A stretch of 40,638 nucleotides of DNA from Actinophytocola xanthii (GTDB lineage: Bacteria > Actinomycetota > Actinomycetes > Mycobacteriales > Pseudonocardiaceae). The notes under the pieces are model-generated. The model was given only the letters and a program-made list of their open reading frames with translations, had not been told where the DNA came from and ran no database searches. The position numbers were made by a program, and so were the translations under genes. Every line of letters begins with the position of its first letter. The stretch's first letter is position 1. The stretch spans positions 1 to 40,638 of the forward strand of contig NZ_MSIE01000069.1 in the NCBI RefSeq assembly GCF_001921205.1. Direction: 5' to 3'. Positions 13,433-37,708 of this stretch are shown piece by piece.

Positions 13433-13449
13433 TGTCGGGGGAGAAGCCG

Positions 13450-21689: not shown

Positions 21690-21818
21690 ATGGGTGAGAT
21701 CACCACGCTGCTTGCCGCGACCGAGGACGAGGCCCTGGCGGCCTCCGGCGCCATGGACGTCGACCTCGGCGAGGCCGTCGCGAACTCGATCGTCGTGGGT
21801 GCGCCCGCCGGCGTCTGA
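21690..21818 (+). CDS. RiPP precursor peptide P1
   Basis: A 42-residue peptide with a strong ribosome site (GGAGGAG) just before ATG. It is homologous to the peptide at 31444: residues 1-27 share 21 of 27 positions (leader, e.g. ITTLLAAT, DEAL, DVD), while residues 28-42 share only 6 of 15. The C-terminal half here is EAVANSIVVGAPAGV; ANS, V35, G37 and G41 are kept in both. A conserved leader with a divergent core is the pattern of RiPP precursors, and YcaO, TfuA and JmjC genes follow immediately. P1 has no Cys, so azoline formation from Cys is excluded; backbone thioamides or Ser/Asn/Val modifications are expected. The leader/core boundary near G27 is inference. Confidence 0.85.
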   Translation: MGEITTLLAATEDEALAASGAMDVDLGEAVANSIVVGAPAGV

Positions 21819-21833
21819 GTTCGCCACCCGGGT

Positions 21834-21864
21834 GGTGATGCCGCACCTCTACTGCGGCATCACC
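21834..21864 (+). terminator. Hairpin after precursor P1
   Basis: Perfect 12-base arms (GGTGATGCCGCA at 21834-21845, complement at 21853-21864) with the loop CCTCTAC, 15 bases after the P1 stop and before the JmjC gene. It has no T-run. Such a structure can stabilise the precursor mRNA and reduce read-through into the enzymes, giving more precursor than enzyme. The same loop occurs after P2. Confidence 0.7.
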
Positions 21865-21905
21865 CCCCGTTCCTCCACTCCGGACCCATGAGCGGGTGAG
21901 ACGAG

Positions 21906-22775
21906 ATGACCCCACTGCACTCCCTGCTGAGCGAGCAGGGTGAGCTGCGCCGCGCCTACCACGGGCGCGAGCCCGTCCTGCTGCGCCAGGCGGTCTCCAC
22001 CGAGGGACTGCCCACCAGCGCGGAGATCGACGCCCTCATCGACGCCAGCTTGCTCAGGTGGCCGTACCTCACGCTGTTCCAGGACGGTGTCCGGGCGCCG
22101 CTGTCCGAGGTGACCACCAGCCGGCGGATCCGCGGCCAGCAGGTCGACGGGTTCCTCAACCCCGACGGCGTGCGCAGGCACCTCGCGGCCGGGGCGACCC
22201 TGCGGATGAGCGAGGTCCAGCACTGGAACCCGACGACCCGCCGGCAGGTCGAGGAGCTCGCCACGACTTTCCCCACCGACGTCACCTCGCTCATGTTCCT
22301 CACCCCGGAGGGCAAGCGAGGGCTGCTGCCGCACCGGGACGGGTCCCGCACGATCGTCGTCCAGCTCGAGGGCGCCAAGGAGTGGCACCTCTACTGGTCC
22401 GAGGACGGGGACACCCCCGACCCGACCCTCGACGTCGACCCGGCCAGCGAGGTCGACTCGTTCGTCCTGCGGCCGGGGGACGTGCTGTTCATGCCCTACG
22501 CCTACGGCCACGCCGCCAGCGCGGTCGGGGAGACCTCGCTGCACATCACCTTCCTGATGGCCGAGCCGAGCCCCGACGAGCTGCTGGGCGCCCTCGTCGC
22601 CGAGTGGCTCGGGACCGAGCGGATGTCCGCGCTGCTCCGCCAGCACAGCACGCTGTCGCTGCCGGAGACCGTGGAGACCGTCCTCGCCGAGCTGGAGAAG
22701 TTCGCGCACGAGGTGGACACCGACGGAGTGCTCGCCAGGGCCCTCACCACGATCAACACCAGGGACGGGTCGTGA
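21906..22775 (+). CDS. JmjC/cupin-type Fe(II)/2-oxoglutarate oxygenase (peptide hydroxylase candidate)
   Basis: A 289-residue protein of the JmjC/Cupin_4 type, related to ribosomal-protein hydroxylases. The iron facial triad is visible as H143-R144-D145 (LLPHRDGSRT) and H202 (YAYGHAAS). VVQLEGAKEWHLY and LRPGDVLFMP are the usual barrel strands. It would hydroxylate a side chain of the precursor peptide; the Asn-Ser pair conserved in both precursors is a possible target (inference). It is the first enzyme gene after P1 and is followed, 4 bases later, by a paralogue without the iron ligands, so a heterodimer is likely. The start ATG 21906 has a weak ribosome site (GGGTGAG). Confidence 0.85.
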   Translation: MTPLHSLLSEQGELRRAYHGREPVLLRQAVSTEGLPTSAEIDALIDASLLRWPYLTLFQDGVRAPLSEVTTSRRIRGQQVDGFLNPDGVRRHLAAGATLRMSEVQHWNPTTRRQVEELATTFPTDVTSLMFLTPEGKRGLLPHRDGSRTIVVQLEGAKEWHLYWSEDGDTPDPTLDVDPASEVDSFVLRPGDVLFMPYAYGHAASAVGETSLHITFLMAEPSPDELLGALVAEWLGTERMSALLRQHSTLSLPETVETVLAELEKFAHEVDTDGVLARALTTINTRDGS

Positions 22776-22779
22776 ACCC

Positions 22780-23616
22780 ATGAGCACCACCCCGCGACAG
22801 CTCGCCGACCGCCTCGCCGCGCTCGCCCGGGAGAACTGGAACCGTGAGCCCGCCGTGCTCGCCGGCCACCAGGCCCCCGTCCTCACCGAGCGGGAGATCC
22901 TCGAGACAGTCGACTGTGGACTGTTGTGCTGGCCCTACTTCAGCGTGCTCCGCGACGGCGTCGCGCTGCCCGCCGCCGGGCTGACCACCAACCGCCGGGT
23001 GCTCAACGTCGCCCCGGGCGGGTACGTGCACCGCGGCGCGCTGCTGGAGCAGCTCCGCGCCGGCGCCACCCTGCGGCTCGACCAACTCGAGGACTGGCAC
23101 CCGCGGGTGCGGCCGCTGGTCGACCGGCTGCGCGGCGCCTTCGACGCGCGGGTGAGCGCCTCGGTCCTGCTCACCCCGGCCGGTGGGCCGAGCACGGCCC
23201 CGGCCACCGCGCCCGCGGGCCACGTGCTCGCCGTCCAGCTCGAGGGCGAGGCCGAGTGGACGCCGGTCCCGCCGGCGGAGGAGGACGGGGCCGACCCGGC
23301 GCCGCCGCTGCGGGCCGCGGCCGGCGACCTGCTCTACGTCCCGCGCGGCTGGGCCTACCGGGTCGCCCCGGTCGGCGGCACCGCGCTGCACCTCGCGGTC
23401 GTCGTCCAGACCCCGACCGTCCAGGACGTCCTCGGCGCCACCCTGCGCGAGTTGAAGCGGCGCATCGGGGCGACCGAGCAGGCCGCGCGCCACCACCTCG
23501 TCTCCCCGGCGGAGAAGTCCCGGTGGGTCCGCGACCTCGTCCTGGAGTACTGCACCGAGCCCGACCCGAGTGCGGTCGGCGAGACCGCGCTGACCCTGTG
23601 CCGGAGCCGGTCGTGA
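22780..23616 (+). CDS. Catalytically dead JmjC paralogue (iron ligands lost)
   Basis: A 278-residue protein that aligns along its whole length with the preceding JmjC oxygenase (WPYFSVLRDG, LTTNRRV, LRAGATLRL, LTPAGG, VQLEGEAEW, AGDLLYVPRG). All three iron ligands are replaced: the HRD position reads Pro-Ala-Thr-Ala (A142, A144) and the second His is Tyr193. It therefore cannot be a normal iron oxygenase. The likely role is a regulatory or substrate-binding subunit for the active paralogue or for YcaO/TfuA, perhaps leader recognition, since no separate RRE protein is seen in the cluster. Its stop overlaps the YcaO start (GTGA). Confidence 0.8.
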   Translation: MSTTPRQLADRLAALARENWNREPAVLAGHQAPVLTEREILETVDCGLLCWPYFSVLRDGVALPAAGLTTNRRVLNVAPGGYVHRGALLEQLRAGATLRLDQLEDWHPRVRPLVDRLRGAFDARVSASVLLTPAGGPSTAPATAPAGHVLAVQLEGEAEWTPVPPAEEDGADPAPPLRAAAGDLLYVPRGWAYRVAPVGGTALHLAVVVQTPTVQDVLGATLRELKRRIGATEQAARHHLVSPAEKSRWVRDLVLEYCTEPDPSAVGETALTLCRSRS

Positions 23617-24800
23617 GCGCCCCGACCGCACCCGCGGCGGGGCCGGGCATACTGCGCGAGCGCACCCCCGAGCGCACCTGGGAGCTGGTGGCGCCGCGTA
23701 TGCCCGCCTACGGCATCACCCGGGTGGCCGAGCTGACCGGGCTGGACACCATCGGCATGCCGGTCTACATGGCCGTCCGCCCGCTCGGCCACACGATGTG
23801 CGTCAGCCAGGGCAAGGGCACGACGCGGCTGAACGCGCGGATCTCGGCGGTGATGGAGGCCATCGAGATCTTCCTCTGCGAGCGGTTCCACCCCGCGGAC
23901 ACCTTCGTCGCGACCGCGGCCGAGCTGGACCTGCCCTACAGCACCACCGAGGTGACCCCCACCGAGCAGTCGGTGGTGTCCGACCGCTTCCCGATGCCCT
24001 GGGTGCCGGCGACCTCGCTGGGGGACGGCGCGCGGCTGGCCGTGCCGCTGCACTCGGTGGCCCTGGACGGCATCTGCGACGACACCTGGCGCCCGCGGAC
24101 GGTCTTCGCCTCCTCCAACGGGCTCGCCGCCGGCAACAGCCTCGCCGAGGCGACCGTCCACGCGCTGCTCGAGGTCGTCGAGCGCTACTCCAGCGCCGGC
24201 ATGGCCCGCACACCCATCCGGCAGCGCCGGGTGATCGACCTGACCACGCTGCCCGACTGCTGGAGCCGCGACCTGATCGAGCACGTCCAGGACGACGGGT
24301 TCTGGGTGGAGGTCGTCGAGTGCTCCGCGGTGCCGGGCACGTCGGCCTTCGCCGTGTTCCTCTGGCGGCCGGACATGCCGAGCATCTACGCCGGGTCGGG
24401 CTGCCACGTGCTGCCCGAGCCCGCCCTGCAACGGGCGCTGACCGAAGCGGTGCAGAGCCGCATGTCGGTGGTCAGCGGCCTGCGCGACGACCTCGGCACG
24501 GTGGGGTACCGAGGGGTTCGACGGCCGGCCGCGCCACCGGCCGTCGAACCCACCCACACCTGGGCGGACGTGGCGACGCCGGTGGCCGGGACCACGGCCT
24601 CCACCGAGCGCCTGCTGGACTGGCTGACCGACCAGGTGAGCGCGATGACCCGCCGGCCCGTGCTGCGGGTCGACCTCACCCCGCCCGGCGAGCCATTCGC
24701 CGTCTGCAAGGTGGTCGCCCCCGGCCTGCCGGAGCTGCACCACGAGGCCAACGAGGAGCTGCCGCGCGTGCCCGAGCCGGCCGACCTGGAGCGGTCATGA
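23613..24800 (+). CDS. YcaO-domain protein (peptide backbone activation, thioamidation with TfuA)
   Basis: A 395-residue YcaO protein. ATP-binding elements are visible: SQGKGTT (65-71), the acidic helix ARISAVMEAIEIFLCER (75-91), SSNGLAAGNSLAEA (167-180) followed by HALLEVVER (183-191), and LTEAVQSRM further on. The enzyme uses ATP to phosphorylate a backbone amide. With a cyclodehydratase partner it makes azolines; with TfuA it makes thioamides. Here no E1-like partner exists and a TfuA gene overlaps directly (ATGA), so thioamidation is predicted. GTG 23613 overlaps the stop of the JmjC paralogue. No typical PxPxP tail is present, which also fits the TfuA-linked group. Confidence 0.92.
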   Translation: MSAPTAPAAGPGILRERTPERTWELVAPRMPAYGITRVAELTGLDTIGMPVYMAVRPLGHTMCVSQGKGTTRLNARISAVMEAIEIFLCERFHPADTFVATAAELDLPYSTTEVTPTEQSVVSDRFPMPWVPATSLGDGARLAVPLHSVALDGICDDTWRPRTVFASSNGLAAGNSLAEATVHALLEVVERYSSAGMARTPIRQRRVIDLTTLPDCWSRDLIEHVQDDGFWVEVVECSAVPGTSAFAVFLWRPDMPSIYAGSGCHVLPEPALQRALTEAVQSRMSVVSGLRDDLGTVGYRGVRRPAAPPAVEPTHTWADVATPVAGTTASTERLLDWLTDQVSAMTRRPVLRVDLTPPGEPFAVCKVVAPGLPELHHEANEELPRVPEPADLERS

Positions 24801-26101
24801 CCGTCCACGTCTTCGCCGGGCCGTCGCTGTCCGGCTCGCCCGTGCTGGGCCTGGCGGGCGTGTGTCACCACCCGCCGATCGCCCACGGCGACCTCTACCG
24901 GCTGCGTCCGGGCCCCCAGGACGTCGTGCTGGTCGTGGACGGGCTGTACCAGCACACCGCGCCGATCCGGCACAAGGAGCTCGTCGCCGCCCACGCCGCG
25001 GGGACGACCCTCGTCGGCGCGGCGAGCATCGGCGCCTTGCGGGCCGCCGACCTCGTCGGCCACGGCATGACCGGGATGGGCACCGTCTTCGGCTGGTACC
25101 GCGACGGCCGGCTGGTCTCCGAGGCCGACGTCGCGCTCATGCACGGCGACGCCGACGTCGACTACCGGGCGTTCACCCACGCCCTGGTCAGCCTGGTCAG
25201 CGTCACCGACCGGCTGGTGGCGGCCGGGCGGCTCGCCGAGCCGGACTCGGCCGCGGTCCTGGCGGTCGCCGAGAGCGTCCACTTCGGCCTGCGCACGGCC
25301 GCCGCGCTGCTCGCCGCCGCCGAGAACGCCGGGCAGGCCGCCGCCATGCGGCTGGTGCTCGAGGAGCTGCGCCCGGACCGGCTCGGCGACATCAAGCGGA
25401 TCGACGCCGAGGCCGCCGTGCGCGCGCTGCTGGCCGGGCAGGTGCCCGCCGCGCCCGCGGACGTGGTCGCGGTGCCGGACACCTCCTACGCACGCGAGTG
25501 GCGCCTCCAGCACACCCCGGCCACCGCCGACCCGGCCGGGCCCACCGAGCGCCAGGTCCTCGCCTACGCCCAGCTGTTCCTGCCGGACTTCCCGCGCCGG
25601 CACACCCGCTACGTCCTGGACCGGCTCACCCCGGAGTACCCGGAGCTGCTCGCCGCCGGCGTGCCGCCGGCCTGGCTGGACGGGCTCGCGGTGGAGGAGC
25701 TGGTGGGCCGCGGGGTGCTGGCGCCGGGCGAGGCCGAGCGGCTCGACGCCGCCGAGCTCGCCACCCGGGTCCTGGTGCGCACGTTCCGGCTGCGCTCCGG
25801 CCGCCTGGTCTACGAGCACCTGCCACCGGAGCTGGCCGCCGAGCTGCCCGAGCTGGCCGCCGGGTGCACGCGGCTGCTCGAGCTGGACCGCCACGCGATG
25901 GCGAAGAACCCGTTCTTCCACCACGGCGACCTGCCGGTGCACCTGGTCGACGCGGCCTTCGCCGCGCTGTGGCGCACCGACGAGGTCCGAACCCACGCAC
26001 TGGACCGCGGCTTCCGCACGTTCGACGAGTTCCGCGAGCAGGCCCGTCCGTTCTTCGTCGCCGCCCGCGCCGCCGTGGCACTGGCGGCGGGCGCGGCATA
26101 G
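24797..26101 (+). CDS. TfuA-like protein (thioamide-forming partner of YcaO)
   Basis: A 434-residue protein whose first 200 residues are a TfuA domain: GPSLSG near the start and the signature IRHKELVAAHAAG followed by TLVGAASIGALRAADL (57-86), then GMGTVFGWYRDG. TfuA proteins are thought to deliver or activate sulfur for YcaO-dependent thioamide formation, as in methyl-coenzyme M reductase and thioviridamide-type RiPPs. The second half (about 225-434) is helical and not recognised; it may bind the precursor or sulfur carrier. ATG 24797 overlaps the YcaO stop. Confidence 0.9.
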   Translation: MTVHVFAGPSLSGSPVLGLAGVCHHPPIAHGDLYRLRPGPQDVVLVVDGLYQHTAPIRHKELVAAHAAGTTLVGAASIGALRAADLVGHGMTGMGTVFGWYRDGRLVSEADVALMHGDADVDYRAFTHALVSLVSVTDRLVAAGRLAEPDSAAVLAVAESVHFGLRTAAALLAAAENAGQAAAMRLVLEELRPDRLGDIKRIDAEAAVRALLAGQVPAAPADVVAVPDTSYAREWRLQHTPATADPAGPTERQVLAYAQLFLPDFPRRHTRYVLDRLTPEYPELLAAGVPPAWLDGLAVEELVGRGVLAPGEAERLDAAELATRVLVRTFRLRSGRLVYEHLPPELAAELPELAAGCTRLLELDRHAMAKNPFFHHGDLPVHLVDAAFAALWRTDEVRTHALDRGFRTFDEFREQARPFFVAARAAVALAAGAA

Positions 26102-26133
26102 CAACCACGACGGCACCACCCAGGGAGCGAACT

Positions 26134-27600
26134 GTGGAGACGATCACCAGCAGCGGACAGGGCGACCAGAACTACGACGTGGTCGTCGTCGGCAACGGCG
26201 CCCTGGGCCAGTCCCTCGCGCTGACCCTCGCCCGGCGAGGACACCGGGTCGCCATGGTCGGGCGGCCGAACCGGCCGTGGGCGGCCTCCGCGGCGGCCGG
26301 GGCGATGCTGGGCTGCTTCGGCGAGATCACCGAGAGCCTGGTCGCCAGCGAGTACGGCCGGCTCAAGCTGAACCTCGACGTGCACGCCGCGCGGATGTGG
26401 CCGTCCTGGGCCGCCCAGCTGGCCGAGGAGAGCGGTGGGGAGGACGTCCGCACCGCCGAGGGCACGGTCGTCATCCTCAACACGATCGGCGTGCCCGGCA
26501 TCGACGACGTCAACTACGCCGCGATCCAGGCCGAGCTGCGCCGCCACGACGAGCCGTTCTCCGACGTCGACCCGGCCGACCTCGAGTGGCTCGACCCCGA
26601 TCCCGGCGCCCGGCCGCTCAAGGCGTTCCACATCCCCAACGAGCACGCGGTGAACGCCGCCGCCCTGCTCGACCAGCTGCACGTCGCGTTCGTGCGCGCC
26701 GGTGGAACCGTCCTGCCCGAGCTCGCGACGCGGGTGGACTACGCCCACGGCCGGGCGCGCGGCGTCGTGCTCGAGTCCGGCTCGCTGGTCCGCGGCGAGC
26801 ACGTGGTGCTCGCGGCGGGCGTGCGCTCGCAGGACCTGCTCGCCACCGTGCCGGACGTGGCGGCGACGGTGCCCCCGCTGGTCAGCGGCTACGGCGTGTC
26901 AGCCCTGGTCCGCACCGGCGACGGCACGGCGCCCGGCAGCGTGATCAGGACCCCGAACCGCGCGTTCGCCTGCGGCCTGCACGTGGTTCCGCGCGGCCAG
27001 GGCGAGGTCTACGTCGGGGCCACGAACATCATCTCCACCGACCCGGTGGAGACCGCGGTCATCCGCGACCTGGACTTCCTGCTCGACTGCGCGGGGGCAC
27101 AGGTGCGCCGCAACCTGCACAACAGCGGGCTGCACAGGGTGCAGGTCGGCAACCGGCCGGTCGCCCTGGACGGGTTCCCGCTGCTGGGCGAGGCGGGCCT
27201 GTCCGGGCTGTGGATGATGACCGGGACCTACCGCGACGGGCTGCACCTGTCCCCGCTGCTGGCCGGCGAGATGGCCAGGCGGATCCTCGGCGAGGAGCCC
27301 GAGTTCGAGCTCGACGCGTTCCGCCCGGTGCGTGCCCCGATCCAGGCGGCGACGCGCGAGGAGATCGTGGAGGGCGCCGTCGTGCACCAGCTGGCCACCG
27401 GCTACGAGTGCGACTGGAAGGTGCCGATCAACTGGCCCTCGCTCATCGAGGCGCAGCTGCGGCCGGCCTATCTCAAGCTGGCCGACGACATCGACCCGAC
27501 GTTCACCCCGCCGCCCGAGCTGCTGGACGCCGCACGGCTACAGCCCACACTGGTCAAGATGCTCCGCGACTACTACGCCGCGAGCCGGGTCAGCGCATGA
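26134..27600 (+). CDS. DAO-family FAD-dependent oxidoreductase (ThiO/glycine-oxidase-like)
   Basis: A 488-residue flavoprotein. FAD-binding VVVVGNGALGQSLA lies near residue 15, followed by GRPNRPWAASAAAGAMLGCFGE, as in D-amino-acid oxidase/glycine oxidase proteins. The C-terminal FAD loop is WMMTGTYRDGLHLSP. About 90 extra residues at the C-terminus (from EFELDAFRP on) are not part of the standard fold. GTG 26134 follows GGGAG. In this operon it may oxidise an amine or dehydrogenate a residue of the modified peptide, or oxidise Gly for sulfur/imine chemistry as ThiO does in thiazole synthesis; the true substrate is unknown. Confidence 0.85.
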   Translation: METITSSGQGDQNYDVVVVGNGALGQSLALTLARRGHRVAMVGRPNRPWAASAAAGAMLGCFGEITESLVASEYGRLKLNLDVHAARMWPSWAAQLAEESGGEDVRTAEGTVVILNTIGVPGIDDVNYAAIQAELRRHDEPFSDVDPADLEWLDPDPGARPLKAFHIPNEHAVNAAALLDQLHVAFVRAGGTVLPELATRVDYAHGRARGVVLESGSLVRGEHVVLAAGVRSQDLLATVPDVAATVPPLVSGYGVSALVRTGDGTAPGSVIRTPNRAFACGLHVVPRGQGEVYVGATNIISTDPVETAVIRDLDFLLDCAGAQVRRNLHNSGLHRVQVGNRPVALDGFPLLGEAGLSGLWMMTGTYRDGLHLSPLLAGEMARRILGEEPEFELDAFRPVRAPIQAATREEIVEGAVVHQLATGYECDWKVPINWPSLIEAQLRPAYLKLADDIDPTFTPPPELLDAARLQPTLVKMLRDYYAASRVSA

Positions 27601-27631
27601 CGCGTCGGACGAGGGTGAAGGAGACACGGCC

Positions 27632-28876
27632 ATGTCGATGGGGATCTACCGGACGCTGCTGACGATCCCGGGGGCGACGCCGTTCGTCTTGTCGGGCTTC
27701 CTGGCCAGGATGCCCATGTCCATGCGACTGCTCGGCTGCCAGCTCCTGGTCACCGCGGCCACCGACTCCTACGCGCTGGGCGGGGCGGTGTCGGCGACGC
27801 TGGGCGTCGCCACCGCCGTCGGCCAGCCGGTGCTCGCCCGCCTCGCCGACCGCGGCGGCCAGCGCCCGGTGATCCGCGGCTCGCTGCTCGGGCACGTCGT
27901 CGGCGTGCTGGGGTTGATCGCGCTGGTCGCGGCGGGCGCCCCGGTCTGGACCTACTTCACCGGAGCGGCGCTGGTCGGGGTGACCTCGCTGCCCTACGGC
28001 TCGCTCGTGCGCGCCCGCTGGGCCGCACTGCTCGACGACGCGGCCCAGCTGCGCGGGGCCTACGCCCTGGAGGCCGTGCTCGACGAGATCATCTACATCA
28101 TCGGCCCGCTGATGGTCGTGCTCCTGGCGACCTACCTGCTGCCCAGCGCCGGGCTGTGGAGCGCGCTGGTCCTGATGGTGGTCGGCGGGCTGGTGCTGGC
28201 GGGCCTGCGCGGGACCGAGCCGCCGCACGGGCCGCCGGACCCGGCGACCGGCGGGCGGGTCCTCGCCATCCCCGGTATGCGGGTGATCGTCGTGCTGTAC
28301 TTCGGCATCGGCACGCTGCTCGGCTCGAGCGACCTGGCCATGATCGCCTTCGCCGACCGGCTCGGCGCGCCCGGCGCGGCCGGGGTGATGCTCGCGCTGA
28401 TGTGCCTGGCGAGCATGGTCGCGGGCATCGTGTTCGGGTCGCGGTCCTGGCGCCTGTCGCAGCCCCGGCTGGTCCTGCTCGCGATCGCCGCCCTGTTCGT
28501 GCTCTTCCTCCCGCTGCTGCTGGCCGCGTCGGTGCCGGTGATGATCGGGTGCGCGGTCGTGGCCGGCCTCGGCATCTCCCCGGTGCTGGTCTCGAGCAGC
28601 CAGCTGATCGCCACCCTGGTCCCACGCAGCTCGATGACGACGGGATTCGCCTACACCGCCAGCGCGGCGGTGCTCGGCATGTCCGCCGGGACGGCGGTGG
28701 CCGGCAGCCTGGTGGACAGCCACGGCGACCGCTGGGCCTTCGCGTTCTCCGTCGCTGTCGCCGGCGCGGCCGTCCTCGTGGTCGCCCTCGGCCAGCGGCT
28801 GCTCCACGAGCCCGCGGTCCCGGCCGTGGGTCGCGTTCCGGTGCCGTCGGCAGCTGCCGAGGTGGAACCCCGCTGA
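27632..28876 (+). CDS. MFS transporter (12-helix), probable peptide exporter
   Basis: A 414-residue membrane protein with about 12 hydrophobic helices in two halves joined by a cytoplasmic loop (LRGTEPPHGPPDPATGG). The segment ARLADRGGQRPVIRG after helix 2 is the MFS loop motif. It resembles sugar/drug efflux MFS proteins. GAAGGAG precedes ATG 27632. As the last gene of the P1 operon it is a good candidate for export of, and self-protection from, the mature product. Confidence 0.87.
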   Translation: MSMGIYRTLLTIPGATPFVLSGFLARMPMSMRLLGCQLLVTAATDSYALGGAVSATLGVATAVGQPVLARLADRGGQRPVIRGSLLGHVVGVLGLIALVAAGAPVWTYFTGAALVGVTSLPYGSLVRARWAALLDDAAQLRGAYALEAVLDEIIYIIGPLMVVLLATYLLPSAGLWSALVLMVVGGLVLAGLRGTEPPHGPPDPATGGRVLAIPGMRVIVVLYFGIGTLLGSSDLAMIAFADRLGAPGAAGVMLALMCLASMVAGIVFGSRSWRLSQPRLVLLAIAALFVLFLPLLLAASVPVMIGCAVVAGLGISPVLVSSSQLIATLVPRSSMTTGFAYTASAAVLGMSAGTAVAGSLVDSHGDRWAFAFSVAVAGAAVLVVALGQRLLHEPAVPAVGRVPVPSAAAEVEPR

Positions 28877-28886
28877 CCACGAAGTC

Positions 28887-28921
28887 GAACACACAGCCGA
28901 ACACACAGGCCGAACACACAG
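28887..28921 (+). repeat. Three direct repeats CGAACACACAG after the MFS gene
   Basis: GAACACACAG begins at 28887, 28899 and 28912 (spacings 12 and 13), each preceded by C. The repeats sit between the MFS stop and the terminator hairpin. CCACGA at 28877 can pair with TCGTGG at 28957, which would enclose both. Function unknown. Confidence 0.6.
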
Positions 28922-28955
28922 GAGATCGCGCCGCCCGGCCGGGCGGCGCGATCTC
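28922..28955. terminator. Bidirectional terminator between MFS and acyl-CoA-dehydrogenase-like genes
   Basis: A perfect 34-base palindrome (each arm 17 bases, beginning GAGATCGCGCCGCCCGG) lies between the convergent genes. It can end transcription from both sides. Confidence 0.85.
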
Positions 28956-28968
28956 GTCGTGGTCTTCC

Positions 28969-30144
28969 TCAGAGGTAGTGGGTGTTGGGCTCCAGCCCAC
29001 ACAGGACGCGGCCGTACAGCTCCAGGTTCGTGTTGGGGTGCATCACGCCGTGCAGGTTGAGCGTCTGCACGTCCCGCTCGATGCGCTGGATCGGCACGTG
29101 GCTGTAGATCGAGGACCCGCCGCTCGCGGTGTTGAGGATGTCCACGGCCTCCTTGGCGCGCTGGCAGGTCGCGCCCATGTCCAGCCGGACCCGGGCCCGC
29201 TCCTCGAGCGTCCAGGACTCGCCGGCCTCGGCCTTGGCGTCGACGGTGGCGGCGGCGCGGCGGGCGTGGAACTCGGCCTCGTCGATCTTCACCGTGGCCT
29301 CGGCCACCTGGAGGTGGGTCAGTGGGGCGTCGCGCTGGCTCTCGTAGGCGGTGTAGCTGATCTTCCGGCCGGGCAGGCGCTCGAAGAAGGCCTCCTTGGC
29401 CGCCCGGGCGAGCCCCATCGCCGTGCCGCTCACCGTCGAGCACGCCGTCGGCAGCAGTGGCGCGCGGTAGACCGGCGAGTCCGCGTTGAGTGCCGAGGAG
29501 TACTCCTCCCGCAGCACCGGTCCCATCGACAGCACCCGCGCCAGGGGGACGAACACGTCGCGGGCGACGGTGCTCACGCTGCCGGAGCCGCGCAGGCCCG
29601 AGGTGTACCAGTCGTCGACGATCTCGAGGTCGGCGATCGGGATCGCGGTCATCACCGGCTGGGGGCCGGTCTCCGGGTCGATCAGGATCACGGCGTTGGT
29701 GTTCCAGTGGCTCTGCTGGACGCCCGAGTTGAACGCCCATCTGCCGTTGACGACGATGCCGCCGTCGGTCGGCACGGCGGTCGCGGTGGGGCTGAGGATG
29801 CCGCACACCCGGACGTCGGGGGTCGCGAAGATCTCGTCCTGCACCTCGTCCGGGAACATGCCGGCGATCCAGGTGCTGATCATCCACACGGCCGTCGTCC
29901 ACGACGTGGAGCCGTCGCCCCTGGCCAGCTCGGCGACCACCTCGGACACCGTGCGGACGTCGCTCTCGTACCCGCCGTAGCGCGTCGGTACGCGCATCCT
30001 GAACAAGCCGGCATCCGCCATCGCCTCGAGCGCCTCGTCCGCCAGCCGCCGGTTCTCCTCGGCCCACGGCGCGTACTTCTGCAGCAGGGGCACCATGTCG
30101 GACGCCCGCTGTACGAGCTCGCTACTCGTCGGTGTGGTCTGCAC
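28969..30144 (-). CDS. Acyl-CoA-dehydrogenase-like flavoprotein (HsaA/DszC-type monooxygenase group)
   Basis: A 391-residue protein with the acyl-CoA dehydrogenase fold: a helical N-domain (RRLADEALEAMADAGLFRM), a beta middle domain (GGIVVNGRWAFNSG, DDWYTSGLRGSGS) and a helical C-domain. The group with this SG-x-AFNSG and TSGLRGTGS-like motif contains two-component flavin monooxygenases such as HsaA and DszC as well as dehydrogenases acting on carrier- or peptide-bound substrates. GTG 30144 follows GAGGGAG. It may hydroxylate, or introduce a double bond into, a residue or side group. It has its own promoter with an exact cluster motif, divergent from the NTF2 genes. Confidence 0.83.
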   Translation of the reverse strand: MQTTPTSSELVQRASDMVPLLQKYAPWAEENRRLADEALEAMADAGLFRMRVPTRYGGYESDVRTVSEVVAELARGDGSTSWTTAVWMISTWIAGMFPDEVQDEIFATPDVRVCGILSPTATAVPTDGGIVVNGRWAFNSGVQQSHWNTNAVILIDPETGPQPVMTAIPIADLEIVDDWYTSGLRGSGSVSTVARDVFVPLARVLSMGPVLREEYSSALNADSPVYRAPLLPTACSTVSGTAMGLARAAKEAFFERLPGRKISYTAYESQRDAPLTHLQVAEATVKIDEAEFHARRAAATVDAKAEAGESWTLEERARVRLDMGATCQRAKEAVDILNTASGGSSIYSHVPIQRIERDVQTLNLHGVMHPNTNLELYGRVLCGLEPNTHYL

Positions 30145-30227
30145 AGTTACTCCCTCGACGTCGCGGTGGTTCGCCTTGAAATGGCGCCTCCGGGCTACCC
30201 GACAATCCCATTCCGCTCCGCCCGCGG

Positions 30228-30242
30228 CATCTCCGCGAATGC
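30228..30242 (-). promoter_or_regulatory. Cluster motif (exact), flavoprotein promoter
   Basis: On the minus strand the site reads GCA-TTCGC-GGAGATG, about 85 bases before the flavoprotein GTG. It is the mirror partner of the copy at 30273, so the divergent promoters each have one. Confidence 0.65.
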
Positions 30243-30272
30243 GCACAAGGCGCGGCGCGGTCGGGCAATTCG

Positions 30273-30287
30273 GCAATTCCGGAGATG
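30273..30287 (+). promoter_or_regulatory. Cluster motif (exact), first NTF2-like gene promoter
   Basis: GCA-ATTCC-GGAGATG ends about 60 bases before the GTG start of the first NTF2-like gene. Confidence 0.65.
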
Positions 30288-30348
30288 ACGCGCTGTGCGC
30301 GGTCGATGAGCATGGGGTGGATCCGTACTACCGAAGCAGGGAGAAACC

Positions 30349-30813
30349 GTGTCCGTTGTTGATGATGCCAAGGCTCGACTGGACGACTACTACGGGCCGT
30401 TCACGAGCGATCGGGAAAAGGAAGTTCTGTCCGTACCGCTGCGCCTGGTCGCGGCCTGGGCGAAGAACGACGCCAAGGCCGTGGCGGACGTCTTCACCGA
30501 GGACGGGACGCTGATCCTGCCCGGTGACGTGTACAAGAAGGGCCGCGAGGAGATCCGGGCGTTCATGGCCGCCGCCTACGCGGGGCCGTTCAAGGGCTCG
30601 GGTGTGACCGGCAAGCCCGTCGACGTGCGCTTCGTGAACGACGAGGTGGCGCTGCTGCGCACGCACGGCGGCATCCTCGCCGAGGGCGAGACCGAGATCG
30701 ACCCGGAGCTCGCGGTCCGGTCCACGTGGGTGGCCGTGAAGCGGGACGGCGAGTGGTTCCTGGCCGGCTACCAGAACAGTCCCCGAGGCGCCGGCGCCAC
30801 GCTGCGCTGGTGA
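30349..30813 (+). CDS. NTF2-like (SgcJ/EcaC type) protein 1
   Basis: A 154-residue single-domain protein of the SnoaL/NTF2-like cone fold. The segments VPLRLVAAWAKNDAKAVADV, FTEDGTLI, REEIRAFMAAAY and STWVAVKRDGEWFLAGYQNS are typical of the SgcJ/EcaC group found in natural-product clusters. Members bind small hydrophobic or polyketide-like ligands and can be cyclases, isomerases or oxygenase helpers. GTG 30349 follows CAGGGAG. The paralogue 30840 follows after 26 bases and a third lies at 32545 on the other strand. Three related cone-fold proteins around precursor P2 suggest a shared role on the modified peptide. Confidence 0.85.
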   Translation: MSVVDDAKARLDDYYGPFTSDREKEVLSVPLRLVAAWAKNDAKAVADVFTEDGTLILPGDVYKKGREEIRAFMAAAYAGPFKGSGVTGKPVDVRFVNDEVALLRTHGGILAEGETEIDPELAVRSTWVAVKRDGEWFLAGYQNSPRGAGATLRW

Positions 30814-30839
30814 CCCGCCGCCTACCGAGGAGCGCGAGC

Positions 30840-31319
30840 ATGTCCACACCCGCCCAGTCGACGCCCACGGCGTCGGAGATCCTCGCCGCCGTCGGCGTGC
30901 CGGAGGACCACTCCTTCTACCGCGAGTTCACCAGCGAGCGGGAGAAGGCGGTCCTGACGGTGCCGCAGCGCATCCAGGCGGCCTGGCTGGCCAACGACGC
31001 CGACGCCTTCGCCGGGGTCTTCGCCGAGAACGGCAGCCTGCTCATGCAGGACGACCAGCTCACCAGCGCGGAGGAGATCCGGAGCTACATGGGCGCCGGC
31101 TTCCAGGGGCCGTACCGGGGCGCGCACGTCACCGGCTGGCCTCTGCAGGTGGACTTCCTGTCCGAGGACGCCGCCATGGTCATCACCCAGGGCGGCATCA
31201 TCCTCGACGGGGAGTCCGAGATCGCCCCGGAGCGCGAGATCCGTGCCACCTGGGTCATCGCCCGCCAGGACGGCGAGTGGCGGCTGTTCTCCCATCAGAG
31301 CAGCCCCATCAAGGGTTAG
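30840..31319 (+). CDS. NTF2-like (SgcJ/EcaC type) protein 2
   Basis: A 159-residue paralogue of the preceding protein: YREFTSEREKAVLTVPQRIQ, FAENGSLL, SAEEIRSYMGAGFQGPYRG and ATWVIARQDGEWRLFSHQSS align without large gaps, after a longer polar N-terminus. It is closer to protein 3 (32545) in the FQG/FEG-YRG and GSLL/GSML segments. ATG 30840 follows GAGGAG. It is co-transcribed with protein 1 and lies directly before the promoter of precursor P2. Catalytic residues cannot be assigned; a ligand-binding or cyclase role is inferred from the family. Confidence 0.85.
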   Translation: MSTPAQSTPTASEILAAVGVPEDHSFYREFTSEREKAVLTVPQRIQAAWLANDADAFAGVFAENGSLLMQDDQLTSAEEIRSYMGAGFQGPYRGAHVTGWPLQVDFLSEDAAMVITQGGIILDGESEIAPEREIRATWVIARQDGEWRLFSHQSSPIKG

Positions 31320-31344
31320 GAGCCGTTTTACCGTGCGGGTGAGG

Positions 31345-31404
31345 AGCGCATTCTGGAGGTGGGTATCCCGGTGTGAAAACCACCATCCTGGTAATCGCAG
31401 CTGC
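31345..31404 (+). promoter_or_regulatory. Promoter region of precursor P2 (homologous to those of P1 and the glycosyltransferase)
   Basis: AGCGCATTCTGG-AGGTG...CCCGG...CCTGGTA matches 34689-34736 before the glycosyltransferase gene, with CCTGGTA at offsets 42 and 41. The whole stretch also aligns with 21594-21652 before P1, including the GCAGCTGC palindrome. GCA-TTCT-GGAGGTG is a degenerate cluster motif with a 4-base spacer. Confidence 0.65.
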
Positions 31405-31443
31405 TGAACCCAATTCCATTCCCGCTCGACCAGAGGAGTAGTC

Positions 31444-31572
31444 ATGGTTGACATCACCACGCTGCTGGCCGCCACCAACGACGAGGCTCTGTCCGCCTCC
31501 GGCGCCAGCGACGTCGACTTCGGCGTGTGCCCCGCGAACTCGCTCGTGTGCGGTGGCAACACCGGCGGCTGA
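31444..31572 (+). CDS. RiPP precursor peptide P2
   Basis: A 42-residue peptide preceded by AGAGGAG, with its own promoter. Leader residues 1-27 match P1 at 21 positions (ITTLLAATNDEAL, ASGA, DVD). The C-terminal half is VCPANSLVCGGNTGG, with two cysteines six residues apart that P1 lacks; ANS, V35, G37 and G41 are shared. No modification enzyme follows in the same transcript, so it must be processed in trans by the JmjC/YcaO/TfuA set encoded 4-10 kb upstream and perhaps by the local NTF2, flavoprotein, methyltransferase and glycosyltransferase proteins. The cysteines could give a disulfide or thioether. A two-component product with P1, or two independent products, are both possible. Confidence 0.85.
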   Translation: MVDITTLLAATNDEALSASGASDVDFGVCPANSLVCGGNTGG

Positions 31573-31586
31573 GCGCTGAGCTAGCG

Positions 31587-31627
31587 GAGGCGGTGGTGCC
31601 ACGCCTCTACCGTGGCACCGCCGCCTC
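31587..31627 (+). terminator. Hairpin after precursor P2
   Basis: Arms of 17 bases (31587-31603 and 31611-31627, one T-G pair) enclose the loop CCTCTAC, identical to the loop of the hairpin after P1. It lies 14 bases after the P2 stop and probably stabilises or terminates the short precursor transcript. Confidence 0.75.
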
Positions 31628-31644
31628 TCATATCCAGAACGATA

Positions 31645-31711: not shown

Positions 31712-32446
31712 CTAATGGGCGACGGCGATCATTCGGCGGTGCTCGACGGTCAGTGGCCGGCCGTCCTCGCCGTAGCCGTCCACCGCGGGGAAGCCGGCCG
31801 CTCCGAGCCAGTCGCGCAGCTCGGGAAACGTGACCAGGCGGTTGAAGAACCGCACCCGCCGGGTGTGGCCGTCACGCACCACCACCCGGTTGATGTGGTT
31901 GCGCCCGGTCAGCGGGTCCAGCTGGTGCCGGTCGACGACCAGATCGCGCTCACGCTCGGTCACGACGCTGGTGACCCGGTCCTGAACCAGCCGCGGGTAG
32001 TTGACCGTCTCGATCACGAACCGGCCGCCGGGTGCGAGCGCGGCCGCGGCCTGGACCAGCACCTTCCGGTTGTCGGAGTCGTCGAAGAACCCGAAGGCGG
32101 ATAGCCAGTTGACGATCCGGTCGAACCGGCCCGGCCAGGGCAGGTCCCGCATGTCGCCGTGCACGAACTCGACCGAGACGCCGCGCGCGTCGGCGTCGGC
32201 GCGGGCCCGCTCCAGGAACACCGGTGTGGTGTCCAGCCCGGTGACGCGGCAGCCGCGCTGGGCGAGCCGGTTGGCGATCCGGCCGTGACCGCAGGCCAGG
32301 TCGAGAACCCGCATTCCTGGCTCGAACTCGAGCAGGTCCCAGATCAGGTCGACGTCGGCGTCGCTGTGCTCCTCCAGCCGGTCGGCGAAGAAATAGAGGT
32401 ACGCGTCGTCGAACACGCCGGACGCGTCGAACTCTTCCTCGGGCAT
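31712..32446 (-). CDS. Class I SAM-dependent methyltransferase
   Basis: A 244-residue methyltransferase with motif I VLDLACGHGRIANRL (47-61), an acidic strand-2 end (VTGLDTTPVFLERA) and the FVHGDMRDLPW motif that positions the adenine. The C-terminal half is a mixed sheet (TSVVTERERDLVVDRHQLD, HTRRVRFFNRLVTF) typical of small-molecule O- or N-methyltransferases. ATG 32446 is preceded by GGAG about 11 bases away. It is downstream of the NTF2-like protein 3 gene but separated by a strong terminator, so it depends on read-through or its own weak promoter. The substrate is unknown; the peptide or a sugar on it are options. Confidence 0.85.
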   Translation of the reverse strand: MPEEEFDASGVFDDAYLYFFADRLEEHSDADVDLIWDLLEFEPGMRVLDLACGHGRIANRLAQRGCRVTGLDTTPVFLERARADADARGVSVEFVHGDMRDLPWPGRFDRIVNWLSAFGFFDDSDNRKVLVQAAAALAPGGRFVIETVNYPRLVQDRVTSVVTERERDLVVDRHQLDPLTGRNHINRVVVRDGHTRRVRFFNRLVTFPELRDWLGAAGFPAVDGYGEDGRPLTVEHRRMIAVAH

Positions 32447-32490
32447 GGCGCTCAGGCTCCCAGATTCCCGGACCCGTCGCACTGCGAAAG

Positions 32491-32520
32491 ACGCCCCCAC
32501 CCGGGAACGGGTGGGGGCGT
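32491..32520 (-). terminator. Terminator after NTF2-like gene 3
   Basis: Perfect 13-base arms (ACGCCCCCACCCG at 32491-32503) with a 4-base loop. Read on the minus strand it is followed by CTTTCG. It separates the NTF2-like gene from the methyltransferase gene. Confidence 0.85.
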
Positions 32521-32544
32521 CGCGTTGTCCTCCGCCGAGGAGCC

Positions 32545-32997
32545 CTAGCCGGCGATCGGGCTGGACTGGTAGTTCAGCAGGTACCAGTCGCCGTCGCGCT
32601 TCACGGTGATCCACATCGTGCGGACCTTCCGCTCGGCGGGCAGCGTTGTCTCACCGGCCTTGAGCACGCCGCCCTCGGTGATCACGATCGCCGAGTCCTC
32701 GGAGAGGAAGCGGATCTCCTGGGGCTCGTCGACGAGGCTGCTGCCCCGGTACGCCCCCTCGAAGGCCGACGCCATGTACGCGCGGATCTCCTCGCGGCTG
32801 GTCAGCTGCTCGTCGCCGACGAGCATGCTGCCGTTCTCGACGAACACCTCGGCGAACCTGTCGGCGTCGCCCTGCTCCCACGTGCCGCGAATGCGCAGCG
32901 GCACGCTGAGGACGGCGCTTTCTTTTCCGTTCGCGAACGAACCGTAGTGCCCTGCCCATTTCTTGGCCTGGGCGACGAGCGACGACGCCTTTGACAT
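32545..32997 (-). CDS. NTF2-like (SgcJ/EcaC type) protein 3
   Basis: A 150-residue paralogue of the proteins at 30349 and 30840: VLSVPLRIRGTWEQGDADRF, FVENGSML, SREEIRAYMASAFEGAYRG and RTMWITVKRDGDWYLLNYQS. ATG 32997 is chosen because AAAGGA lies 8 bases before it and the paralogues start similarly; the in-frame ATG at 33027 lacks support. It has its own promoter with an exact cluster motif and is divergent from the hydrolase gene. The same cone-fold ligand-binding or cyclase role as its paralogues is inferred. Confidence 0.85.
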   Translation of the reverse strand: MSKASSLVAQAKKWAGHYGSFANGKESAVLSVPLRIRGTWEQGDADRFAEVFVENGSMLVGDEQLTSREEIRAYMASAFEGAYRGSSLVDEPQEIRFLSEDSAIVITEGGVLKAGETTLPAERKVRTMWITVKRDGDWYLLNYQSSPIAG

Positions 32998-33052
32998 CCC
33001 GTGTCCTTTCTCCGGCATTGTCACCAATGGTCGGCGCGGTGTCGCGGCCGGT

Positions 33053-33067
33053 CATCTCCGACAGTGC
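33053..33067 (-). promoter_or_regulatory. Cluster motif (exact), NTF2-like gene 3 / hydrolase divergent promoter
   Basis: On the minus strand the site reads GCA-CTGTC-GGAGATG, about 55 bases before the NTF2-like start. It also lies 60 bases before the divergent hydrolase gene, which it could co-regulate. Confidence 0.65.
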
Positions 33068-33127
33068 TGCCCCTGGCGCCGGCATTTCTTCGCGCCGGTG
33101 GCCCCCATCGCCGCGGTATCGTCGCGC

Positions 33128-33820
33128 ATGGCTGTTTTCGCGTTGGTCCACGGTTCGGGAGACGGTGGCTGGGCATGGCACCTGGTCGAGGAGCAGCTGC
33201 GGTCCCGCGGCCACGACACGGTCGCGCCCGACCTGCCGACCGAGGACGAGACGGCGGGCCTGACGGAGTTCGCCGATGCCGTGGTGCGGGCGGTCGGCGA
33301 CCGCCCCGGTGACCAGGACGTGGTGGTGGTCAGCCACTCCTCGGGTGGCTTCGTCGCGCCGCTGGTCGCCGAGCGGCTCTCGGCGGACCTGCTCGTCCTG
33401 GTCCAGAGCCTGGTCCCGCGGCCGGGGGAGACGCCCAACGAGTGGTTCGCCAACGCCGGCTACGCCGAGGCGGTCAAGGAACAGGCGGCCCGGGACGGCG
33501 GCGTGACCGGGAGCGACGACCCGTACGTCCTGTTCCTGCACGACGTGCCCCGCCCGCTGGCCGAGGAGGCGATGCGCCGGGAACGGCCCACCGGCGGCGC
33601 CGCGGACGACCAGCCCTGGCCGCTGCCGGCGTGGCCCGACGTGCCGACCCGGTTCGTGCTGTGCACCGAGGACCGCTTCCTCCCGCCGGCCATGATGCGC
33701 CGGGTGGCCGCCGAGCGGCTGGGCATCACCGAGCCCGACGAGATCCGCTCCAGCCACTGCGTCACGCTGAGCCGTCCCACGGAGCTGGCCGACCTCCTGG
33801 TCGGCTATCTGAACGACTAG
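33128..33820 (+). CDS. Alpha/beta hydrolase (small esterase type)
   Basis: A 230-residue alpha/beta-hydrolase. HGSGDGGWAWHLVEEQL after strand 1 forms the oxyanion region. The nucleophile elbow is SHSSGG with Ser71; the first Gly of the usual GHSxGG is Ser69. The acid is probably in LCTEDRF, and the catalytic His is in SSHCVTLSRP near residue 216. It resembles EstC/MenH-like esterases and plant-type methyl esterases. It could trim an ester or amide from the product. ATG 33128 fixes the first strand (MAVFALVHG). Its TAG stop lies in a CTAG that directly adjoins an inverted-repeat scar of the mobile element. Confidence 0.83.
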   Translation: MAVFALVHGSGDGGWAWHLVEEQLRSRGHDTVAPDLPTEDETAGLTEFADAVVRAVGDRPGDQDVVVVSHSSGGFVAPLVAERLSADLLVLVQSLVPRPGETPNEWFANAGYAEAVKEQAARDGGVTGSDDPYVLFLHDVPRPLAEEAMRRERPTGGAADDQPWPLPAWPDVPTRFVLCTEDRFLPPAMMRRVAAERLGITEPDEIRSSHCVTLSRPTELADLLVGYLND

Positions 33821-33855
33821 GACGCGCCCCAGGACGTGCCCTAGGTAGTCCGCAC
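33820..33855. mobile_element. Scar of the terminal-inverted-repeat element
   Basis: GGACGCGCCC (33820-33829) and GGACGTGCCCTAGG (33832-33845) copy the outer ends of the elements at 9.56 and 40.47 kb. CTAGGTAG-TCCGCAC (33841-33855) equals 40466-40486 with six bases deleted. It looks like the remains of two element ends brought together, possibly an excision or recombination footprint. Confidence 0.5.
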
Positions 33856-33866
33856 CCCGGGAGATG
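33852..33866 (+). promoter_or_regulatory. Cluster motif (exact), N-methyltransferase-like gene promoter
   Basis: GCA-CCCCG-GGAGATG, followed by TCCCGGG, about 105 bases before the methyltransferase ATG. A CCTTGG at 33891 matches the position of CCTGGTA in the glycosyltransferase promoter. Its left bases overlap the element scar. Confidence 0.65.
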
Positions 33867-33971
33867 TCCCGGGCGGTCGTGCCGTCCCATCCTTGGCCCA
33901 GCCTCGCGCCGGTCCACCACGCCGGCCTTCTTCCTTCCGGCGAGGCGGCCCGGGAAAGGCGGAGCTGGCGG

Positions 33972-34685
33972 ATGTACGAGGACGACCTCGCCGAGGTCTA
34001 CGCCACCTACTACGAGGGGCTCGGCAAGAGCTACGCGACCGAGGCGGCCAGGCTGCGCGTGCTCGTCGAGCAGCTGAAGCCGGACGCGTCGTCGCTGCTC
34101 GACTCGGCCTGCGGGTCGGGCGAGCACCTGCGAGGGCTGCGCGAGCTGTTCGACCACGTGGAGGGCCTCGAGCTGTCCGAGGCGATGCTGCGCGTCGCCC
34201 GGCGAAACCTCCCCGGGGTCCCGCTGCACCACGCGGACATGCGCCGGTTCGACCTCGGTCGCCGGTTCGACGCGGTCACCTGCATGTTCAGCTCGATCGG
34301 GCACGTGGCGACGCCGGCCGAGCTGAACGCGACGCTGGCCTGCTTCGCCCGGCACCTGGTGCCGGGCGGGGTCGTGGCGGTCGAGCCGTGGTGGTTTCCG
34401 GAGAACGCGGTCGAGCGGTGGGTGGCCGGCGACGCGGTGCACCGGGACGGCCGCACGATCACCCGCGTCTCCCACTCGGTCCGGGAGAACGGCGCCACCC
34501 GCGTGCGGGTGCATTTCGCGGTCGCCGACCTCCAGGCCGGGCTGCACCATTTCAGCGAGGACTACCGACTCACGCTGTTCTCGCGGGAGACCTACGAACA
34601 GGCATTCGTGGACGCCGGCTTTGCCGTGGAGTTCGTCGAGGGCGGTCCGCTCGGCCGCGGCCTGTTCGTCGGTGTCCGGAAATGA
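33972..34685 (+). CDS. SAM methyltransferase resembling deoxyaminosugar N-methyltransferases (TylM1/DesVI type)
   Basis: A 237-residue methyltransferase strikingly like TylM1/DesVI, the NDP-3-amino-deoxysugar N,N-dimethyltransferases: opening MYEDDLAEVYATYYEGLGKS, motif I LLDSACGSGEHL (42-53), LELSEAMLRVARRNLP, HHADMRRFDLG, MFSSIGHV, VEPWWFPENAVERWV and RTITRVSHSVRENGATRV, ending EGGPLGRGLFVGV. The family methylates the amino group of a nucleotide-bound sugar. No sugar-nucleotide genes are in the window, so either they are elsewhere or this enzyme has been recruited to methylate a peptide amine. ATG 33972 is the family start. The glycosyltransferase gene follows after 82 bases with its own promoter. 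Confidence 0.88.
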   Translation: MYEDDLAEVYATYYEGLGKSYATEAARLRVLVEQLKPDASSLLDSACGSGEHLRGLRELFDHVEGLELSEAMLRVARRNLPGVPLHHADMRRFDLGRRFDAVTCMFSSIGHVATPAELNATLACFARHLVPGGVVAVEPWWFPENAVERWVAGDAVHRDGRTITRVSHSVRENGATRVRVHFAVADLQAGLHHFSEDYRLTLFSRETYEQAFVDAGFAVEFVEGGPLGRGLFVGVRK

Positions 34686-34688
34686 ACC

Positions 34689-34736
34689 AGCGCATTCTGG
34701 GAGATGTTCCCCGGGTTGGCGATTCATAGCCTGGTA
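34689..34736 (+). promoter_or_regulatory. Promoter of the glycosyltransferase operon with exact cluster motif
   Basis: The exact motif GCA-TTCTG-GGAGATG is at 34692-34706, followed by TTCCCCGGG and CCTGGTA at 34730-34736, ending about 30 bases before the ATG. The layout matches the P2 promoter almost base for base in its outer blocks. Confidence 0.7.
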
Positions 34737-34767
34737 CAGATTCGCCGTTCGCGCGGGAAGGACACTC

Positions 34768-37680: not shown

Positions 37681-37708
37681 TGAGACACGAACCCCCAAGG
37701 AGAAGCAG

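Follow-up and report, generated by a model that had tools for sequence, protein, structure and literature searches.

A candidate thioamidated-peptide gene cluster with a tandem JmjC protein pair in Actinophytocola xanthii

Introduction

Among the closest described systems to the locus considered here are the thioamitides (thioviridamide and thiostreptamide S4), ribosomally synthesized and post-translationally modified peptides (RiPPs) for which YcaO–TfuA thioamidation of a short core is combined with a 2-oxoglutarate (2OG)/Fe hydroxylase. For thiostreptamide S4, the accessible part of PMC8153245 assigns thioamide formation to YcaO–TfuA and the hydroxylase TsaJ to PF05721; TsaJ with YcaO–TfuA thus already yields a hydroxylated thioamide peptide, and a precedent exists for the two modifications together. 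Thiovarsolins and the TfuA families of RiPPER and Malit et al. are likewise actinobacterial YcaO–TfuA systems with RiPPER-type precursors. Here we analyzed the window, the entire 40,638-base contig NZ_MSIE01000069.1 from the 8.34-Mb genome of Actinophytocola xanthii, in which a short precursor peptide gene leads an operon encoding two JmjC proteins, YcaO, and TfuA.

The words JmjC, Jumonji, and cupin are absent from the main text of PMC6511847 and PMC8120280, as far as that text was accessible, and such clusters may be drawn in the supplements. No paper describing JmjC with YcaO–TfuA was found in literature searches that left supplements and most subscription papers outside their reach. Within the literature searched, both the JmjC enzyme family and the JmjC pair are new for such a peptide. 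An earlier note, made from the DNA alone, had claimed that no characterized RiPP combines these enzymes with NTF2-like proteins, a flavoprotein monooxygenase, a glycosyltransferase, and a methyltransferase; the first part stands to the extent just given, whereas the membership of the NTF2, flavin monooxygenase, glycosyltransferase, and methyltransferase genes was weakened by the results below.

Results

A precursor-led operon with two JmjC proteins, YcaO, and TfuA

Precursor 1 is followed by six co-directional genes, encoding JmjC1, JmjC2, YcaO, TfuA, a DAO-type flavoprotein, and an MFS protein, with intergenic gaps of 4, −4, −4, 32, and 31 bases (Table 1). Pfam, run on 33 window proteins, assigned JmjC_2 to JmjC1 (E = 2e-17) and weakly to JmjC2 (2e-6), and gave YcaO (8e-56), TfuA (2e-30), DAO (1e-35), and MFS (5e-20) for the others. 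The operon from precursor 1 through the exporter is real, and its domains, gaps, and triad residues bear out the gene order that the earlier note had described, the JmjC pseudo-enzyme included.

The YcaO and TfuA genes overlap by 4 bases, and both products score above their Pfam cut-offs. A thioamide had been predicted from YcaO and TfuA without an E1-like partner, and neither an E1-like nor an ocin-ThiF partner, the mark of azol(in)e RiPPs, was found among the 33 proteins scanned. YcaO enzymes also make azolines and amidines, and both precursor cores contain serine, that of precursor 2 in addition two cysteines. Such a product is nevertheless quite improbable given the missing E1-like partner, a YcaO closer to the McrA thioamidation model than to the SagD model (under cut-off for both), and the TfuA gene that adjoins YcaO in the window and in seven related clusters (L064–L070). 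A survey of 52 TfuA places in the host's family (30 with flanks of about 1.5 kb, 22 in stretches of 12–20 kb) points the same way, all 22 longer stretches containing a YcaO. The survey gave a JmjC match at one of the 52 places (L035, a divergent gene), and genome G593 has a JmjC gene 2.3 kb from TfuA by coordinates. The window TfuA carries a helical extension (25440–26101), and its sole PDB match at E ≤ 0.001 was TfuA itself; long TfuA frames are common in the host's family.

The JmjC pair and its relatives

JmjC1 (289 amino acids) carries a JmjC_2 domain with HxD...H, and its profile finds NO66, MINA53, and YcfD by sequence. The structure model of JmjC2 matches the same three proteins, with HxD...H replaced by alanine, proline, and tyrosine. 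The JmjC2 model ends in a helical bundle in place of the C-terminal winged helix of the ribosomal oxygenase (ROX) type, and JmjC1, equally short, probably lacks this winged helix too. Among 14 clusters the Fe triad is intact in every JmjC1 and in nine JmjC2 proteins; it is lost from JmjC2 in the window, L064, L065, L070, and L120, all five of which have precursors of 41–42 amino acids. In a joint tree JmjC1 forms one group (support 0.95), and the JmjC2 group does not separate from the outgroups. Retention of a dead enzyme beside its live sister suggests that JmjC2 is a structural partner of JmjC1. ROX enzymes are dimers; RoxA, dimeric and full-length, carries a winged helix and is not known to have a TfuA partner.

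Relatives were sought in a genome collection with a query alignment built from two JmjC1 proteins. Ten loci resulted, of which L071–L073 (partial JmjC matches; no YcaO or TfuA match) were dropped; the seven true relatives, L064–L070, span Paractinoplanes, Micromonospora halophytica, Streptomyces, Streptacidiphilus, and others. All seven keep the order JmjC1–JmjC2–YcaO–TfuA, the TfuA of L068 and the JmjC2 of L070 being seen by translation and the YcaO frame of L070 being split. A second, distant YcaO–TfuA pair lies right after the first in L064 (14043–15916), L065 (14295–16277), and L070 (11431–13241); for the host of L070, Streptacidiphilus carbonis NBRC 100919, the accessible text of PMC8120280 names two tfuA and three ycaO genes.

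The arrangement peptide–JmjC–JmjC occurs in 13 other clusters, nine with YcaO–TfuA and four plasmid-borne ones without, and a peptide gene stands at the operon head in 14 of 14, window included; these relatives show that the JmjC pair is wider than the window cluster. The counts are of clusters, not independent events (L068 and L116 are near-duplicates with identical precursors, and L113–L115 are close kin). Seven of 14 plasmid records were opened, giving four with the pair only (H1, H2, H3, and H5), one with YcaO–TfuA (H4), and two with other peptides (H6 and H9); the four pair-only clusters showed no YcaO or TfuA match in about 18.7 kb. A phylum-wide draw of 396 genomes added one further JmjC-pair cluster, JmjC genes being present in 2 of the 396 at E 1e-40, own genome counted. 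Peptides with and without accompanying YcaO–TfuA share a C-terminal motif, D-A/S-P...Q-I-x-x-A (read by eye), whose presence in both kinds of cluster suggests that it serves the JmjC pair.

Tandem JmjC genes with a head peptide and no YcaO–TfuA (L113, L114, L115, and L117) lie on linear plasmids of Streptomyces and a plasmid of Mycolicibacterium; all four clusters encode AAC(3)-family acetyltransferases and three also GNAT acetyltransferases, and their product may be acetylated. Streptomyces sp. NBC_00316 carries one of the YcaO-free plasmid clusters. In L118 and L119 the peptide ahead of the JmjC genes is of another kind, resembling a signal peptide and ending C-x-x-CYPDVI. Further JmjC proteins of the host's family occur in unrelated settings, several of them close to apparent genes for other RiPPs (by eye).

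This distribution bears on whether the JmjC pair and YcaO–TfuA modify a cellular protein, with the peptides incidental. JmjC1 is related to NO66, MINA53, and YcfD, and in Escherichia coli the uL16 residues Arg81 and Met82 are targets of RoxA and YcaO (accessible text of PMC13063428), but JmjC genes this rare in the phylum, plasmid-borne in some hosts, and peptide-led in every cluster make a cellular target extremely improbable.

Precursor peptides and their hairpins

Both precursors are 42-residue open reading frames with ribosome-binding sites (RBSs), located 9.6 kb apart. They are identical at 27 of 42 residues (64%; BLASTP E = 4e-17; 0 of 2000 shuffles as good), and a profile of both gave no further convincing match in the genome (next best E = 0.07). 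Over the leader (first 27 codons) they differ 3, 2, and 7 times at codon positions 1, 2, and 3, and over the core (last 15 codons) 6, 7, and 3 times. The counts are small, and their pattern reads as that of a constrained leader and a diverging core, as in RiPP precursors; the proposal of two precursors with one leader is thereby upheld. Of 386 family genomes, five had precursor matches at E ≤ 0.01, own genome included. In G509 and G473 (clusters L126 and L127) the matches (best E about 1e-5 to 1e-7) lie less than 5 kb from TfuA, each cluster having two differing precursors, every one followed by a hairpin; those in G413 and G204 sit inside long reading frames. Significant homologs of the window precursors were found only in L126 and L127. 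A single precursor family for the window and the JmjC-pair relatives was not supported, 68–858 of 2000 shuffles being as good for L064, L065, and L070. Near the YcaO–TfuA of L142 and L144 there are three near-identical copies each of a 39-residue peptide ending SVMTGEPCD, accompanied by a flavoprotein that looks LanD-like (by eye).

The gap between precursor 1 and JmjC1 (87 bases) holds a strong hairpin, and the hairpins after the two precursors have an identical seven-base loop. All eight clusters folded, window included, have a hairpin in the peptide–JmjC1 gap (folded without shuffles), as have all four plasmid clusters with a gap; the hairpin is weaker in L120, and L117 has no gap. A short open reading frame and a strong hairpin ahead of an operon have the appearance of an attenuator, in which case the peptides would be regulatory leader peptides and not precursors. 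This is very improbable, however, since the amino acid sequence varies in the core but is kept in the leader, L126 and L127 each contain a pair of non-identical homologs (and L142 and L144 other peptides in triplicate), and precursor 2 heads no operon on its strand.

Nearest YcaO relatives and the left boundary

The window YcaO is 73% identical to those of L126 and L127, from two genomes of the same family, and 66–69% identical to those of L142–L144; no JmjC was found in the stretches around these genes. L126 and L127 each contain two DAO copies (68–70%), each adjoined by an MFS copy (48–49%). In the YcaO tree, from which L070 was omitted because its first YcaO frame is split, the window groups with L126/L127 and L142–L144 (support 1.0); the sister is the JmjC-bearing L064/L065 (0.97), followed by the other JmjC type (0.94). 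Placement of the window inside its clade has a support of 0.24. Trees of JmjC1, JmjC2, YcaO (seven clusters), and TfuA all split L066–L069 from the rest (0.996–1.0). Because the next YcaO relatives, L064/L065, have the pair while the L126/L127 and L142–L144 stretches show no JmjC, the simplest reading would be that the JmjC pair was present in the ancestor and disappeared from the sister lines.

The left-flank genes (11.8–18.1 kb) travel with the cluster in L126/L127, and on this ground the cluster probably extends from about 11.8 kb to 28.9 kb, precursor 2 lying outside that range; the span first proposed (21690–31572) was too short leftward. An ornithine-cyclodeaminase-like gene, a second aminotransferase, and a permease (18.1–21.5 kb) had no counterparts in the L126/L127 stretches. 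For the pyridoxal phosphate (PLP) enzyme at 20375–21508, likewise not found there, the nearest NCBIfam models are PRK07324, GntC, and VioD, all under cut-off.

Right-hand neighbors

The earlier note had counted the NTF2-like, flavin monooxygenase, glycosyltransferase, and methyltransferase genes as tailoring the peptide, which would make the locus one large cluster for a glycosylated, hydroxylated, methylated thioamide peptide. In favor of this, precursor 2 lies intact between the second NTF2 gene and methyltransferase 1, and its position among the right-hand genes is their only tie to the RiPP. The best NCBIfam match of both methyltransferases is the daptide RiPP methyltransferase, far under cut-off (83 and 66 bits versus 175), L126/L127 contain weak methyltransferase 1-like matches (32–33%), and among the additional enzymes of predicted thioamidated RiPP clusters, glycosyltransferases are reported as the commonest (accessible text of PMC8120280).

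The monooxygenase and NTF2-like genes, however, have DNA about 70–78% identical in other genera; eight of nine stretches around such matches (L097–L105) contain monooxygenase homologs (58–68%), seven of these eight also an NTF2 gene. In L100 (G006:C49, 20 kb) the monooxygenase, NTF2, glycosyltransferase (55%), and GMC (70%) genes lie beside an iterative type I polyketide synthase (PKS; ketosynthase–acyltransferase–dehydratase–ketoreductase–acyl carrier protein), with no YcaO, TfuA, or JmjC match in those 20 kb. Queries with NTF2, monooxygenase, glycosyltransferase, and methyltransferase gave no match at E 1e-3 in the ten loci scanned, seven of them the JmjC-pair relatives, nor did GMC; the L126/L127 stretches held no NTF2, HsaA-like, glycosyltransferase, or GMC match. 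A strong palindrome separates the right-hand set from the operon, and neither a nucleoside diphosphate (NDP)-sugar gene nor a glycosyltransferase activator was found among the window proteins scanned. Methyltransferase 1 homologs occur in three contexts without such a cluster visible (by eye).

The right-hand monooxygenase, NTF2, glycosyltransferase, and GMC genes appear to form a separate module, and their participation in the peptide pathway is unlikely. A glycosylated product, as first proposed, is doubtful because the same set recurs beside an iterative PKS without YcaO or JmjC. Many clusters contain the monooxygenase together with an SgcJ/NTF2-like gene, and some of them have stand-alone condensation domains or iterative PKSs.

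Table 1. Positions of the operon, precursor peptides, hairpins, and neighboring genes in the window
Feature	Position	Strand	Evidence or remark
Amine-oxidase-like enzyme using flavin adenine dinucleotide (FAD)	11840..13432	+	75–76% in L126/L127; 11840 is the beginning of the stretch used, not a called start
Small protein X1, no Pfam match	13432..13788	+	65% in L126/L127
Protein X2, no Pfam match	13806..14369	+	73–76% in L126/L127
Small protein, no Pfam match; looks like an ABM-type monooxygenase	14366..14713	+	47% in L126/L127
SDR oxidoreductase	14721..15518	+	80% in L126/L127
PLP decarboxylase	15511..16980	+	83% in L127; L126 stretch stops before this gene
Class V aminotransferase	17005..18108	+	76% in L127; L126 stretch stops before this gene
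Precursor peptide 1, 42 amino acids	21690..21818	+	RBS GGAGG; homologs adjoining YcaO–TfuA in L126/L127; leader/core codon pattern
Hairpin in precursor 1–operon gap, 12-bp stem, loop CCUCUAC	21834..21864	+	Folding z −4.5 (21816–21905)
JmjC1, ROX-type Fe(II)/2OG oxygenase, triad H143, D145, H202 intact	21906..22775	+	
JmjC2, pseudo-oxygenase, triad A/P/Y, ROX-like fold, C-terminal helical bundle	22780..23616	+	
YcaO	23613..24800	+	Sole YcaO found in genome
TfuA, long form: TfuA domain and ~220-residue helical extension	24797..26101	+	
DAO-type FAD oxidoreductase	26134..27600	+	Closest NCBIfam model ThiO, under cut-off; GTG start picked by RBS
MFS exporter	27632..28876	+	Pfam; 48–49% copies adjoining DAO copies in L126/L127
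Palindrome, probable two-way terminator closing operon	28922..28955	.	z −4.9
HsaA-like flavin monooxygenase (acyl-CoA-dehydrogenase fold), neighbor, probably another pathway	28969..30144	-	
Two SgcJ/NTF2-like proteins, neighbors, probably another pathway	30349..31319	+	
Precursor peptide 2, 42 amino acids, leader as precursor 1, core with two Cys	31444..31572	+	
Hairpin 3' of precursor 2, 17-bp stem, loop CCUCUAC as after precursor 1	31587..31627	+	z −8.0 (31570–31680, includes second hairpin following)
Neighbors of doubtful membership: methyltransferase 1 (-), third NTF2 (-), alpha/beta hydrolase, methyltransferase 2, glycosyltransferase (activator-dependent)	31712..36069	.	
Second MFS and GMC oxidoreductase, neighbors, probably another pathway	36094..39256	+	GMC 70% in L100

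Discussion

Gene order, the precursor family, the hairpins, the loss of the JmjC2 iron site, and co-inheritance can be read directly from the DNA. Taken as a whole, the locus is probably a cluster for a thioamidated and hydroxylated RiPP, with the left-hand genes in and the right-hand genes out, a reading we hold with moderate confidence. It would be a genuine, uncharacterized variant of the thioamidated RiPPs, for which we infer all of the chemistry, the heterodimer, the order of steps, and the residues modified. Two 42-residue precursors with one leader would be made in excess, because the hairpin after precursor 1 would damp the downstream genes. YcaO with TfuA would convert one or more backbone C=O groups into C=S in the hydrophobic C-terminal part, and JmjC1, as a heterodimer with dead JmjC2, would hydroxylate the same peptide at a side chain. 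Oxidation of an amine or amino acid in the product would fall to the DAO-type flavoprotein, and its export to the MFS protein. The left-hand SDR, decarboxylase, aminotransferase, and amine-oxidase-like genes would belong to the pathway, and the right-hand glycosyltransferase, NTF2-like, and HsaA-like genes most likely lie outside it.

Several points weigh against this reading. No protease for leader removal was recognized among the window proteins scanned, and no leader-binding domain (RiPP recognition element, RRE) was identified, JmjC2 ending in a helical bundle and the TfuA extension matching nothing in the PDB at E 0.001; the accessible text of PMC12710340 reports JmjC proteins with RRE-like folds. 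The window precursors are not significantly like those of L064, L065, and L070, nor do they show the C-terminal motif found in the JmjC-pair relatives, and hence the JmjC substrate residue does not carry over. With no JmjC in the stretches of L126/L127, the closest by YcaO, the JmjC proteins may be dispensable, separately gained, or acting on something else. Both the damping by the hairpin and the JmjC1:JmjC2 complex are suppositions.

More tentatively, and with the balance somewhat against it, the locus may belong to an undescribed RiPP class whose core is a peptide with tandem ROX-type JmjC proteins as an obligate heterodimer, one half dead in one lineage, and in which YcaO–TfuA is an optional second layer; the two enzyme families that act on neighboring residues of uL16 would thus be joined in one operon for a hydroxylated thioamide peptide. 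The window cluster links ribosomal-oxygenase chemistry to RiPP biosynthesis and makes a natural catalytic/pseudo JmjC pair available for study. Named relatives, some of them plasmid-borne, with and without YcaO–TfuA, make the contribution of each enzyme pair testable by comparison of native clusters.

Compared with known systems, the thioamitides differ in having a PF05721 hydroxylase, dehydration, a macrocycle, and histidine methylation, where the window has the JmjC_2 pair and DAO; of the thioamitide set (PF05721 hydroxylase, dehydration pair, flavoprotein decarboxylase, and PF06325 histidine methyltransferase; in part after PMC8153245), none was found among the 33 window proteins. The thioamitide TsaMT matches PF13649, as both window methyltransferases do. 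In the biphenomycin cluster a JmjC protein (BipG) also acts on a RiPP core, hydroxylating ornithine, but it is a single JmjC accompanied by MNIO and radical SAM enzymes, and YcaO–TfuA is not mentioned in the accessible text (PMC12707348). The std cluster of S. thermodiastaticus, as described in the accessible part of PMC13174530, shares a YcaO–TfuA thioamide and an iron-dependent hydroxylase on one core, together with an MFS gene, and differs in having an MNIO instead of JmjC, a carbamoyltransferase, and a different precursor. In uL16 modification the target is a ribosomal protein and not a precursor; as proposed for the window, a ROX-type JmjC (RoxA/YcfD) and YcaO act there on one polypeptide, in E. 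coli on neighboring residues (accessible text of PMC13063428).

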